From assembly GCA_963920765.1 (NCBI GenBank), contig OY987242.1:15586002-15650001 (forward strand): DNA of 64,000 nt, in the 5' to 3' direction. The translations under genes were made by a program, and so were the position numbers. Positions 2,347 to 61,922 of the stretch are shown in pieces. The first letter of the stretch is position 1; each line of letters begins with the position of its first letter. This DNA comes from Ulota crispa. Taxonomy: Eukaryota; Streptophyta; Bryopsida; Orthotrichales; Orthotrichaceae. The notes beneath the pieces were generated by a model. That model was not told the DNA's origin. It searched no databases and was given only the letters and a program-made list of their open reading frames with translations.

Positions 2347-4421
2347 TGTTACTTTGAGGGACGAGAGATTTCCATCAGAGGTCAGCTGAGCATGCGTGTG
2401 GATGAGAATGCTGATGGCGTTGCACTAACTTGGACAGAGTTTGAGTTGGATGAAAAACGCCCCCTGGCCCTGATCTTTCAGCATTGCCATAAATTACTGC
2501 ACCACGAGCACGCAGACATCTGGACCCCTCGCCAGACACGTACGTTTTCTGCCTTGCGTGGCTGCCCTGGACTCCCTGGAGGGCTGGACTGCGCTCCACC
2601 GTGACGTCACCGCTGGTCGCGCGTCTGCGCCCGGCTCTCTCGGCGGCAATTGCGTCGCGAAGTGCTGGATCCTGCTGCGACGGGCGGCCAGCCTGACGCT
2701 TCGCCCCGAATTGATAGAAACACAAGTCAGCCTCGATGGTCCCGGAACGCCTTGTGCTCCTCGGTTCAGCGGCGGTTAAGTAGAAAGCTTGGTTAGAATT
2801 TAACTCTGCGCCTCACTTTTGTCGTCTGTTCATTGCCGCAGCATCAAGCTGTCTGCGGCAGCCCTGTTGCTCGAAAGATTAAGAGCCGAGGCTTGCTCGC
2901 TGCACACCCCGCCCTTCCGGTTCATGCCGGAGGCTCATGTAGAACAAGCTCGGAAGTTAGCAGTGTGAGCACAAGAGCCTTTGAACTTTGTATCACTGTA
3001 CGGAGAATTTTCTAGATCGGGCTGCGGCATTCGCACTGATCGTAGCGTAGCAGTGAGCGAGACGCAGTGGCTCTTCGCTTCCCCATTCAGCTCAGCAACG
3101 TAAGTCGGTGGCTATGGAACAGCGTTTTTGGGGATTTCGTGACTTCGTTTGGTTTGGGCTGTTTTGTGAGGGAGCATGTGGTTGCCGCAAACTCCCACCT
3201 TGATGGAGATGGCGTTGTGTTTCAAGTCTGTAGAATGGAACGCATACAAATAGCGGAATTGGGACCCGTGAATGCAATCAATGATTGTGAGGTTGAGGGG
3301 TTGGGGTTTTTGGGAAGGGTTCATTTCGCAGTGCTTCTAGCACTAGCAATTTATCTCTGTATCGGTAGTGGAAAGTTTCGGTGAGAGAAGGGTAGGGTTT
3401 GGTCTTGGCTTGGAACCTCAAATCTGGCTGTTTATAGATGTAAAAATGAGATGCCGTTGCAATCTGTGTGCTGCACAGAATTTGCACTTCGCGTGAAGTT
3501 TGTGTAGATGTCGTGGTTGCTGAAACCTTCGCAGTTTCAGTAAAGACCAATTTTGTCAAATTGTAGTGACTGGATTCCTGCTTGCCGACTGATGGTTGAT
3601 GGATCACTTCACCTTCGCTCCATCCGTACGGCATGGTCTACTCAAGTTTTTTGAACTTTGTGTTCGGCATTCTTGTAGAGTCTATTGCCAAATGGTTGCA
3701 AATATTTGTAGTGTTCCTCGAGCTCGTGCTCTCGTCAGTTTCTTTTCCGTTGAGGTTTGTTATTTCCGAAGCGAGCAGTCTGTCTCCATTTGTCCATATA
3801 AAGTTTTCTCTCAATATACGACTCCTTTGAATTCAAGACCCTTTCTTCTTCTACAATCCACTCAATTAGGCTTGTTCAATCTCGTCTAGCTATCTCACAG
3901 TTGAGATTGCACTTGTGCTTATGCAGTAACTGTGACGGCGACAAAGAGAATTGTGTCTTGGAAGATGGTACAATTCCGAGGAGGAAGAGTTGCAGATGCA
4001 TCAGGAAACCATTATGTTTGCTCAAGGGTTTGATGAGAGCCCAAATTAAGCAGCAGGTAACTTTTGTCCCAAGTCACTTAGTACTACTTTTGGTTGAATC
4101 AGAGCGGTGGCGGGATATATGTTAGACCTATGTCCGAGGTTGACCACTACCGCAGTTTCGGTTGTTCTTATTGCTGACAGTCATTGTTGTGGGGGTCACG
4201 CACCTGGAGCAGGACTATCTCCATGCCAAAGAGCAATTTTGTGATCAATTGTGTCAAGCATGACTGACTTTCAGCAATTCCTTGCGGCGGACAGCGACTT
4301 CACTCGTCGAGCTGCAGTGTCAGCTCAAGCCAAGCAAGAGAATTTAGGTATGTGCAGCTTCCAATCTCGTAGGGTTCTGCTGTTAAATGAGCCAGAGTGC
4401 TTTTTGGGGTGACGCTGATGG
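2347..4421 (+). other. Probable promoter and leader of the bHLH gene
   Basis: GC content rises relative to the repeat spacers, and no convincing protein-coding exon is seen before 4260. Reading frames here have no recognisable domains. The stretch most likely holds the promoter and a long 5' leader, possibly with leader introns. The one coding-like piece is a short ATG-started frame at 4260-4373, described separately. Confidence 0.4.
4260..4373 (+). other. Upstream duplicate of the bHLH N-terminal module (now a uORF)
   Basis: An ATG at 4260 opens a frame reading MTDFQQFLAADSDFTRRAAV before diverging and stopping near 4373. It is a clear duplicate of [20 protein letters not shown], encoded at 4911-4970 inside the main protein. 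The similarity continues to a GT donor in both copies (ttaG|GTATGT at 4348/4349 and tctG|GTACGT at 4998/4999). One extra T around 4320 relative to the downstream copy shifts the frame. Without that base, splicing 4348 to 4447 (TTTTAG acceptor) would join in phase 1 to the main frame. As the sequence stands it acts as an upstream reading frame of about 37 codons. Confidence 0.65.
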
Positions 4422-24323: not shown

Positions 24324-27300
24324 CTATATTCCACATAGAAGCACTCTACGATTTCCATGCCTAAGGTTGCGCCTAGAACTATTTACTAAACTCTCTTTAG
24401 TAGTTATTTGATCGTCGCCAAGTCTAGGTATTGGAATTTGTTGCGGTGCTCTGTAATTGCTATCTCCTGGAACCTTGTCTGACCCACCAGACATAGCACC
24501 AACGGATTTGGATTCTTCATCATCGTCAAATCTAGCACTGCTACTTTGACTCGATGAATTAGAAAGGGCAGCGGTGTCAGGAGGGGGAGAATGACAAACA
24601 ATTGAGGACACTGTCCAAATAGCTCTTTGCCAGGTTGCATCCATAACCCCGTCCGTATTAGGCATCCCTACAGATTCAAATGGTAGGGTTGCCGCCAATT
24701 CTCTTCATAGTCTTCTCCGCCCTCTTTTTAGTCAAACATTCACCACTAGTGCTTTGTTGATGTCAACGTTTAGATGGATCGTTCGGGTGTACACTTGGGC
24801 GCGATGGCGCTTTGTTTGAAGTCCTACGCTGTGACGTATTCAACGTTGGCAAGAAATTAGCCAACCATTTACCTATCAACAAAGTTGGTGCAAAAAGATG
24901 AACCTTGGAAGACAGCCTCGACAAACTATGAATTAGTGGATTGTTCGGCATTAGCATTTCATGTTGCTCCAATTGGAAATTCAAGTGGAGGGGGTATATC
25001 CAGCTCTTGATAGCTAGGAGGCCCTTTGTTACAAGTGTTTTCAACATGAAGTGCTAGTGTTACCACCTCATTATGTTCACATCCTCTTTGGACACAAACA
25101 CCATATGGTAATGTTTCGGTGGCCACTCGTTCATCAGCAGGGTCTAGACTTGGCACCTTTTGTGCCACAACGTCGTCAAATGTATTCCCATCAGGGGATT
25201 CAACAGCCCCTATATTTGACATCTCTATAAGCATTCCTTTTTGACCGTTGTGGCCATTGTCATTATTATCCTCCTCATCAAAGTCAAATACGGACTTGTC
25301 AACTAGAGTACGCCTTTCAGGCCTCCCATTGTTTAGGAAATGTGTCATTGTCTTCATTGGAGTCGTCATCTTTGGGATTAGAGAGAACAAACCCATGGTC
25401 TAGACCATCAGATTCTTTTGTCATGGAGTCTTCTGATATCATGTTCGTAGTACACCACCTTGCTAGATCTGCTGCAGCCCTTTCCTTCAGAGTCTTGGAA
25501 TTGGTATAAATGTAAACCAATTGTTTTGCGCGCTCTAGTGTCAATCTATTGCAGACCTTGCTATGAACAAAGGAGTACATGCTCCAATTTGCATGATGAT
25601 GCAGAGCACACTTGCGCTAGGATCCTTTTGACAATCAGTGCAAGTGTACTGGCACTTGCTCCAAGAAGATCCCACCATTCGTGGGGCTCCAACTTTAGGG
25701 TGGTAGGATTTGGAAGCCCTCCAAAATGGCCTCGCCCCTCTCAAAAAGCTTGGTACTCAGATAGAGCCAAGACAAATGCTTGGTCTCCAACCAATATTTT
25801 ATGCAATACTCTCAATATAGCCTCTTTTGCTTCATCATCATCCATTAATGGTACTTTGTCCAATAAAAACGGATTCAATAGAGCACTAGCGTAATGTAGA
25901 TTTGTTCTCATCAGATCCCACCTTGTGTAAAATTTGTCTTTGGCACAACTTGCATAATGTGCCGATAACAAAAACGGTGGATCCTTGAAGGATAAAACCG
26001 CCTTCTCCACGATCTTCATCACAAGCCATGCCTTCTCCATACATGGATGTTTGCCATTAAACTCTCAAAGGGCAACCAAGAGAGACTCCACCATGCGCAT
26101 GAAGTTTAAGCATGACTTCCAAAAGGTTTCTGACCTCACATGTCGTCGAACAACGTCCGCCTTCCTTTGCGTTTCCTCTATTGTCAGTTTCCTATAGTAC
26201 TCATTCCATTGCGGATCATGGATAGTCGCTTCCATGGCTTCCCTTACTTCCACCAAATGCTCAATCATATGGAACGTGATCGCAAAGTGCGTCTCATTTG
26301 GATTTTTGAGCATGTGAGTGGGAGAATGTTGACAAAATATTGCAAGTGACATATGATGCCTGCAAATATAATTCACAATGACCCTAGCTTTCTCCACAAT
26401 GTTTGTTATCCAATCTTGTTTTCTCCAGTCTTCAAGTAAAAGGTCCAACACATGTGCTGCACAACCTTGAAAATAAATGTGTGGAAACCGTCCAATTATC
26501 CGACCTGATGCAGCACACATGCTCCCTGCGTTGTCCGTGCAAATGTGTACTACATTCTTCCCCCCACCTCTTCAATGAAATCAAGCATACAATTAGCCAC
26601 ATAAGTAGCATCTTTGCTTTCACCCGTGGTATCTACCAATCCAAGGAATACCTCTCCACTTGTGCACGCCATCATGATATTTATCAATGGCCGATGTGAG
26701 ACATTGTCCCATCTGTTAGAGCATATTGTCACACCGTATTTATGGATTAGGCCCCTCATCTTCTCTGCCACCGTTGCTACCAGTTTGTCCTTTGTGGATT
26801 CCAGGAGCTTTGTACAAAGTGCATGGTAAGTTGGAGGTTTGTATAGAACTCTTGCCTTTGATGTTGATCTCATAGCATCCACAAAAGTAGGGTGCTTTGC
26901 TACATTGAATGGTATATTAGCTTTGTAAAAAACCTCAGCCTACTTCTTGTCTAGCATTTGTCTCATTGAGGAGTTCATCCCTTCTTGTACAGATAATTGC
27001 CTCAAAGGTCGACTAGGGGTTAAACTAGGGCTGGACACCTCTGACAATCATACTTGGGAGCATTGACCCTTGTAGTGTTTGGCCTCTTCATTTGCTGAGA
27101 TGGAAACAATACGCTATTGCTCCCCCTGTACTATACTCGCTAGAGCTATTGACGGCGATGTCACTTCCACATTATTATTAGTTTCACCCAAAAGGCCAGC
27201 TGGTACATTTGCTCCACAATTGAAAAACATTGTTTTCACAGCTGGAGGGACTTTGGTGCACACTTGCACGCCGTGGGGGTTATTATTTCCTTTGTGCCCC

Positions 27301-59347: not shown

Positions 59348-60144
59348 TTAACCCTTGAGCGCCCAGTGCAAAATCTAGAAAATGAGGCCAAGAGTGACCA
59401 TGCCCATAAAAATTGCACGTCCCAAGTTGGGAATTTAGATTAGGGAGGATTCACCGCTGAAATAGCAAAAAGAGTGCTTGATGCACCCAACTAGAAATTT
59501 GCAAAATTTTTGACCGCATCGTTTCAGAGATTATAAAAGTCAAAGTACAGTTGACTATGTGGCAACCGGCTAATTTTGGGGGAGTCCATGGCTATGGATG
59601 CAAAAATTCATGCCTTAGAAGAGGCTTCTTTATATGAAATTTAGACAAGGGGTGCAATTTACAAGAATCTCGCTTGTTGCCAAATCTGGTAATGTTTTGA
59701 CATTTTCAAGGTGCTTTTTTAGAGGTCCAGAGTTGCAAGGCTCACACGGCATGGTGAACAATAGACGGGGTACGGATACAGTTTTGACCTCCACAAGGGC
59801 ACAAATCTTGATAGTATAACTGCAAAACCCTTTTCCAGTCTAAGGCATGCGTGCCAAAACACCCTAATAGTATTAAACCGGCCATAGCCGGTGGTCTTTA
59901 TCCTTGCAACTAAACCCTAAATCGCTTGGAATGAAGTTTTAGTGTACTATTGTCACGGTTGACTTGCACAATCCGTGCTTGTACAAGTGGTGAAACCCCA
60001 TTGCCCACTTCCCGACATGAGAGTAGTACCATACCTTTGACCAAGTCACTTTTTTAGAAAATATAGTACAAATTTGAACTAGATTTTAAGGAAAGTTCAA
60101 TTTGCAGAGGCCATATTCTGGCATGTGGGGCGGTCAGGGGTTAA
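59348..60144. mobile_element. TTAA-flanked non-coding element, 789 bp
   Basis: TTAA lies at 59348-59351 and 60141-60144. The left end reads CCCTTGAGCGCCCAGTGC and the right end, reverse complemented, reads CCCCTGACCGCCCCACATGC. They agree over most of the first 18 bases. The interior has no coding frame. Confidence 0.75.
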
Positions 60145-60781
60145 GGGTCAAGAGTGAAAAAGCATGGTGAACTTGCCAGATCCTGAGCAGATCCTGCGAT
60201 CACCATTGACCCCAAATGTGGATACATTTAGCAAAACCCCTACTGTATTAAAACATTTTGTTTTTCAAGAAATAGAAATATAAACAGTAAAAAACTGAAA
60301 ATCTAGCACATTCAACAGGGTTATCAGCAACTTGAGCTACACTAAGTAGTACATTAAGTTTGCCCCACACTAATTTCTCAATATTTTACCCTATGAAAAT
60401 ACTTATTGACAGTACAACAATTTTTATCAATAATTACCATAATAATTCTTTTTTGCCAACAACAATGATGTTGTGAAAAAATAAAACAAAATTTTCCAAG
60501 CTACAAACCATGTGAAGTCCCAATATTTGAAAAGTTGCATTTGTCTCCATGTGGCCAATAGGCTGCTGGATGAATCATGCGCAAGGCTTTTTTTCTCAAA
60601 TTGCCAGATCTTTGCTATCCACATTCCATTCAAGTAAAAATGGAAAGGCTAGCCCATAGTGGTCTAAATTTATCAAAATTGTTGCCTACTAGCAATGCTT
60701 TCCTAGAAAAAAAATGTTGTGGTCGTGAATTAACTTTTTAAGATAAGGCAATCTATTTGTTAAGGCAATCTAAATGCAATA
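60145..60781. repeat. Spacer with interspersed repeat (relative of 51975-52250)
   Basis: From about 60365 the sequence follows the order of the 52-kb repeat and ends at 'ggcaatctaaatgcaatatt', exactly where the next TTAA-flanked element starts. Confidence 0.55.
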
Positions 60782-61419
60782 TTAACCCCTAAATGCCTAA
60801 GGTCTTTTTTGAGCTTCTAGATGTTTGCTCAAAATTGAACAAAAAGCCAACATTTAATAAGCTATGTAATTCTTTTTAAAATTCTAATTGTGCATATTCA
60901 AACTAGATATGTTAAAGATCACATAGGAAAAGAAAACACAACAATAACACATGCAAATTTAAAGATTATAATGCTTGATCATGAAGGTGTTAAAATTGCA
61001 AAAATGACTTGAAGTCTATCAATCCTCTTTTCACATATTGAATCTAAAAAATTGGTCACCTAGAAAACATGAGGTTAAAAAATGACATACATAACTTCAA
61101 TCACTTTACAGCTTTTCAAAATCTTTTCTACACTTTTTGAAAATGAATTTCTAATGTAAATTTTCCTTGAAGATCTAATGTATTTGAGGCTCATTTGCAA
61201 GAGCTCTCCACACTACATAAGGTGAAGACCCTTGCACAACCTCTTGAATAGAAAAATTGCAATCAACCATGTTCAAAATCAGATTTTTGATGTTGAAACT
61301 AGATTTCAAAAGAAGAGTTGAAGAATATAAACTACTAAAAATAGCAACTTAGTTAGGTCTATTGAACTTCAAAGTATTATTGACACCAAAATTTGGTGTG
61401 TTAGGCATTTAGAGGTTAA
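60782..61419. mobile_element. TTAA-flanked non-coding element, 630 bp
   Basis: TTAA lies at 60782-60785 and 61416-61419. The ends are CCCCTAAATGCCTAAGG and, reverse complemented, CCTCTAAATGCCTAAC: a 15-base inverted repeat with one mismatch. AT-rich interior, no coding frame. Confidence 0.82.
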
Positions 61420-61681
61420 CCCTAAGCGCCCGATCAACATTATACTATCAATGGGGATTTTAAAAGGGAAAATTCAATGCAAATTTGACTGCTATAACCG
61501 CATTGTTCCTTTGGTGAAACAGCCAAGAACCAAGCCCAACACATGGCAAATCCTCTAAACTTGCAAATTCAAGGGTCGGATCCCGTGGATCCAATTTCCC
61601 AATCCACAAACCTAGCTTGATTGCAAGCATTTCTCTTGGTACCCCAAAACCGCATTTAGACTCTAAGCGCTCAAGGGTTAA
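61416..61681. mobile_element. TTAA-flanked non-coding element, 258 bp, adjoining the previous one
   Basis: The left TTAA (61416-61419) is the same one that ends the previous element; the right TTAA is at 61678-61681. The ends are CCCTAAGCGCCCGATC and, reverse complemented, CCCTTGAGCGCTTAGAG. It is related to the 59348-60144 ends (CCCTTGAGCGC). Confidence 0.75.
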
Positions 61682-61695
61682 GTGTAGATAAGATA

Positions 61696-61922
61696 GAAGT
61701 CTTTTCTTCCGACCATGAACCTTATTTCGTGCATTTGTGCCCTTGGCGAGAATTTTGGGCCCGACCATAGATGCCTTATTTTTTAGGACCCAAAAAATAA
61801 AGCATCTATGGCTTCCCTAAACCCAAAAAATAGGGCATCTATGGCCTCCCTAGATTTTGGGCCCAAAATTCCCGCCAGCGTACAGATGCACGGAATAAGG
61901 TTCATGGTCGGAATAAGAGACG
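61696..61922. mobile_element. Foldback element, about 227 bp
   Basis: The left arm phrases TTCCGACCATGAACCTTATT and GAGAATTTTGGGCCC, then CATAGATGCC, are mirrored in order on the right (GGCATCTATGG, then GGGCCCAAAATTCCCGCC and AATAAGGTTCATGGTCGGAA). The loop is near 61800. It is non-coding. Confidence 0.75.

Follow-up and report, generated by a model that had tools for sequence, protein, structure and literature searches.

Several short elements flanked by TTAA and ending in CCC lie in the 64,000-nucleotide stretch of Ulota crispa DNA analysed here (the window; C1:15586002-15650001), raising the question of which transposon superfamily they belong to and whether the genome holds a transposase that goes with them. 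The preliminary description had read them as piggyBac-like and predicted an autonomous partner with a DDE_Tnp_1_7 transposase elsewhere in the genome. On the basis of searches of the 274.8 Mb genome (157 contigs), we conclude with high confidence that several piggyBac families of a land plant are represented here by nonautonomous (MITE-like) copies, because the genome-wide end motif and the transposase genes together carry this assignment. Genes for GH3 and bHLH proteins lie in the window, and Dirigent had 14 matches in the genome and none in 14 control genomes, a set that may hold no plants; we take GH3, bHLH and Dirigent to be land-plant markers. The window also contains a fragment of DUF659, presumably a domain typical of hAT-like transposons, at 26065-26571 on the minus strand.

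Table 1. Nonautonomous elements in the window and the TTAA at which two of them meet (window positions).
Feature	Start	End	Strand	Description
E1	242	947	.	706-bp nonautonomous piggyBac-type element, both TTAA counted; ends TTAACCCCTAAAGGACCAA; near full-length palindrome
E5	28281	28646	.	366-bp nonautonomous element, both TTAA counted; sits inside a high-copy repeat
E2	59348	60144	.	797-bp nonautonomous element, both TTAA counted; ends TTAACCCTTGAGCGCCC / TTAACCCCTGACCGCCC
E3	60782	61419	.	638-bp nonautonomous element, both TTAA counted; left end TTAACCCCTAAATGCCTAA
E4	61416	61681	.	266-bp nonautonomous element, both TTAA counted
TTAA common to E3 and E4	61416	61419	.	One element inserted in the flanking TTAA of the other

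All five elements (Table 1) carry TTAA at both ends, as first described, at coordinates that include the TTAA, and all five are dispersed repeats. The own-genome DNA searches scored about 40 of the best candidates per element, so that the counts are lower bounds, and they include the window copy. The full length 1-706 of E1 was spanned exactly by 55 of 84 match rows, with others at most 89% identical (best 40 of 6187 candidates). For E2, 31 of 40 matches spanned 1-797, with others 80-92% identical (best 40 of 321 candidates); for E3, 28 of 41 spanned 1-638, with others at 80-83% and one at 73% (best 40 of 4988 candidates); and for E5, 33 of 41 spanned 1-366, with others at 88-92% and one at 72% (best 40 of 402 candidates). 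The boundaries of these four elements are therefore real, since most scored copies stop exactly there, including those of E5, which had earlier been rated the weaker case. E4 likewise has TTAA at both ends and dispersed copies; 12 of its 40 matches spanned 1-266 exactly, the rest being partial, down to short fragments (39 of 39 candidates scored), and its two ends agree at 10 of the first 20 bases, ungapped. The two ends of E5 agree at 13 of 20.

Aligned with its own reverse, E1 was 85% identical over 730 columns, and it was predicted to fold far better than 20 shuffles (z -47.6); because it is palindromic, E1 gave matches on both strands at many places. No similarity between the interiors of the five elements was detected by blastn, indicating five families rather than one. 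A single composite element over 59348-61681, whose outer 15 bp pair perfectly, was considered and rejected, as E2, E3 and E4 each recur with boundaries of their own. Just to the right of E4, at 61744-61877, is a compact set of inverted repeats with arms of 19-23 nt, apparently a separate small repeat. Arrangements like that of E3 and E4 recur, with 491 exact back-to-back element junctions genome-wide, which is 1.3-fold over expectation if TTAA is counted once or 2.6-fold if both sides are counted (about 190 expected); we do not claim a strong preference for back-to-back insertion. Abutting elements with 4 bp in common were also seen at C5:11087190-11087193 and C7:20562168-20562171.

The preliminary description had pointed to TTAA-CCCY ends as something to be sought across the whole genome, and there they are abundant. 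The motif TTAACCCYTNANNGNCC occurred 31,318 times (15,685 + 15,633) in the 275 Mb genome, compared with 9 occurrences of its reversed pattern and 17 of the version with TATA in place of TTAA, placing it about 1800- and 3500-fold above its two controls. A variant with a first base other than T occurred 1,272 times (reversed control, 30), so that the outermost T is retained in 31,318 of 32,590 ends (96.1%). The inverted ends begin with CCC (CCCT or CCCC), as do those of the piggyBac superfamily. With two exact ends assumed per element, half of the ends multiplied by 555 bp, the average length of E1 to E5, gives a rough figure of 8.7 Mb for what the elements might cover, about 3% of the genome.

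Duplication of the target was approached by joining the flanks of 53 candidate insertions, some of them overlapping, and comparing the joined flanks with the other genome loci read. Twelve of the 53 sites yielded 35 alignments that spanned the junction, 15 of which were gapless near it, 9 had TTAA opposite it and 4 had both. The clearest empty sites were those of an E1 copy at C9:88912 (L037) when compared with L024 (87%) and L012 (83%), both gapless with a single TTAA. Gapless empty sites reading TTAA were also found for a 939-bp element in L017 compared with L009 (73%) and for an E1 copy in L039 compared with L031 (86%). The other alignments were gapped or had letters other than TTAA, notably those of L034, which aligned to TTCA, TTGA and others, of L036, and of L041, which aligned to TCAA and GTAA; in most of the 35, divergence or gaps are too great for TTAA to be visible. 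The expectation of empty sites with a single TTAA thus held for the clearest cases, with TTAA opposite the junction in only 9 of the 35. Together with the retained outer T, these sites show the TTAA target site duplication of the piggyBac superfamily.

For the elements in the window, a genome-wide search with joined flanks (best 40 of 1041 candidates; coordinates only) gave 25 of 72 rows crossing the junction of E5 at 84-89% identity, most of them 395 bp long against 405 in the query, indicating that the host of E5 is a common repeat with other copies that lack E5. No match to the joined flanks of E1, E2 or E3 plus E4 crossed the junction by 25 bp on each side among the best 40 of the same 1041 candidates. 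Two split matches with 4-bp overlaps were discarded as TTAA duplications, the overlapped query letters being TATA and ACAT.

The predicted transposase is present in the genome. With 116 of 528 candidates scored, DDE_Tnp_1_7 (PF13843) gave at least 120 matches, whereas the 14 control genomes gave no match. Stop codons interrupt 110 of the 120 rows, leaving 10 stop-free rows from 8 places. The 20 highest-scoring rows were read with 4-kb flanks, along with two further loci. Ten pieces were given to Pfam, and PF13843 was recognized in seven, that is, in all the transposase pieces (two from L012 and one each from L014, L009, L019, L045 and L044). The first L012 piece matched the solved structures of piggyBat (9c0f, 1.7e-16) and insect piggyBac (6x67, 3e-13); the second has a cysteine-rich tail, which might correspond to the C-terminal cysteine-rich domain of piggyBac transposases but had no Pfam match. 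All three aspartate motifs are present in L012, L019 and L044, and we take them to hold the catalytic triad that characterizes piggyBac transposases; the third motif has N in L045. Local alignments between the transposase pieces of six loci gave 32-55% identity, indicating several families.

Transposase-bearing elements are 5.0-6.8 kb long and contain long upstream frames (L012:5563-6852, minus strand, 430 aa; L013:2381-3997, plus strand, 539 aa; L014:1739-2920, plus strand, 394 aa). These three were the remaining pieces given to Pfam and had no match; they may extend the transposase at its N terminus or represent a second gene. The interrupted state of most transposase matches, together with the divergence of E1 copies (pairwise identity 83-93%, median 89%, among 15 copies that were the best-scoring ones and hence biased towards likeness), suggests that piggyBac movement in this genome is mostly past rather than current.

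The end motif and the transposase genes are linked in position. At 10 of 20 transposase loci, ends agreeing at 15 or more of 20 bases were paired across the transposase, whereas swapping of flanks gave a mean of 4.2 loci and 1 of 5000 shuffles reached the observed number; the other 10 loci had no end pair at this threshold. Requiring 16 of 20 bases left 7 of the 20 loci (swapped mean 2.5; 4 of 5000 shuffles), and 14 of 20 gave 11 loci, less clearly separated from the control (swapped mean 6.9; 39 of 5000 shuffles). At 17 and 18 of 20 bases, pairing at the 20 loci was not significant over the control (288 and 444 of 5000). Ends around the 20 transposases faced inward 45 times and outward 23 times. 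Among the ten paired loci, L028 is uncertain, its right end serving also as the end of a 234-bp element, and L009 and L018 seem to represent a single family. The connection to the window is an element of 5746 bp at L012 (1528-7273 of the locus), which has at both of its ends the 19-bp left end of E3; the right end of E3 differs from the L012 end by one mismatch. For E1, E2, E4 and E5, no transposase element with the same ends was found among the loci read. The forecast of an autonomous partner was therefore borne out at the level of the superfamily, with DDE_Tnp_1_7 genes bracketed by ends at half of the loci, and at the level of an identical end sequence for E3 only.

Other origins for the small elements can be set against these data. 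That they are chance inverted repeats in AT-rich DNA draws some plausibility from how common TTAA is, with 300 in the window, but copies have their boundaries in common and the motif far exceeds both controls, which rules this reading out and leaves it a vanishingly small probability. It is also very improbable that they are mariner- or Harbinger-like elements that duplicate TA or TAA and happen to prefer TTAA. If the empty site reads TTAA, duplication of TA by an element with A...T ends leaves an identical sequence, and no single site can tell the two readings apart. The end counts speak against TA duplication, since a TA target would leave the outer base free, as expected for Tc1/mariner or PIF/Harbinger elements, whereas T is retained at nearly every end; this constraint contradicts a TA-duplicating family, which was rejected, and the linked transposase is that of piggyBac. 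The end counts thus run against the duplication of TA or TAA that the preliminary description had named as contrary evidence.

Kolobok and Sola3 also duplicate TTAA, and the small elements could belong to one of these superfamilies and merely coexist with piggyBac, a reading left some room by E3 being the only element with a same-ended, transposase-bearing relative in hand. Yet DDE_Tnp_1_7 genes lie between ends of this very motif at more loci than in swapped controls, and ends of the CCCT type are those of beetle piggyBac in the accessible text of PMC12732532, so we consider this reading improbable. We therefore favour piggyBac as the source of the small elements. Extrapolating from known piggyBac biochemistry, the transposase would bind the CCCYTNANNGNCC end, cut at TTAA and insert into a new TTAA, which would be duplicated, and short elements with matching ends would be mobilised in trans.

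The mechanism and the superfamily are known; the host and the abundance are unusual. Most of what is known of piggyBac comes from animals, in whose genetics it is a standard tool. Animal piggyBac-type MITEs are short, noncoding and TTAA-flanked with CCC ends, and the window elements are likened to them from this general description, with the difference that E1, at 706 bp, is palindromic over nearly its whole length. The piggyBac of insects (6x67/6x68) and the piggyBat of bats (9c0f) likewise have DDE_Tnp_1_7, three aspartate motifs, a TTAA target and short inverted ends starting with CCC; in contrast to these, the elements described here have a land-plant host, larger transposase elements with upstream frames, and at least one copy with an apparent GT-AG intron. 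The transposase elements are also longer than those of beetles, which span 2074-3465 bp according to the accessible text of PMC12732532.

That 2025 paper, as far as its accessible text goes, describes piggyBac as occasional in plants and names red algae. The accessible portions of PMC8086355 and PMC10140906 mention piggyBac in plants and give no detail, and that of PMC10794571 treats it as one of the plant superfamilies and as a tool. The fern Ceratopteris richardii is likewise a land plant with PiggyBac-labelled repeats, its repeat table listing 1,230 fragments (122,417 bp, 0.00%) in the accessible part of PMC6890710, compared with 31,318 exact end motifs and linked transposases here. A term search of the accessible text of the Physcomitrium paper PMC7466625 did not return the word piggyBac, and another moss paper, PMC10619864, was set aside as a source, the word there being piggybacking. 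Within the accessible parts of the open-access literature we found no description of piggyBac as abundant in any land plant, which fits the earlier remark that such elements are little described in this group. Tens of thousands of piggyBac ends in a plant genome indicate that land plants can be colonised extensively by this superfamily and that repeat libraries built from other plants may miss it; its arrival, by inheritance or transfer, and its silencing by the plant are open to direct study here.

One transposase locus differs from the others. No recognisable ends were found in the 5.3 kb read at L044 (C1:1178709-1183995; transposase match C1:1180709-1181995), where the best end score was 10 of 13. 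Its two main coding pieces (about 1941-2432 and 2703-3629 of the locus) are open and are separated by an apparent intron of GT-AG form, as read by eye. L044 is thus a candidate for a host-adopted gene, or else for an element whose ends have been lost or lie far off. Host adoption of piggyBac transposase genes is known from animals and ciliates. A broader scenario, in which a plant-lineage piggyBac was a major DNA transposon of several families and left behind at least one open, intron-bearing gene without ends, possibly adopted by the host, is one that we hold only tentatively and think unlikely, and L044 is the gene to which it points.
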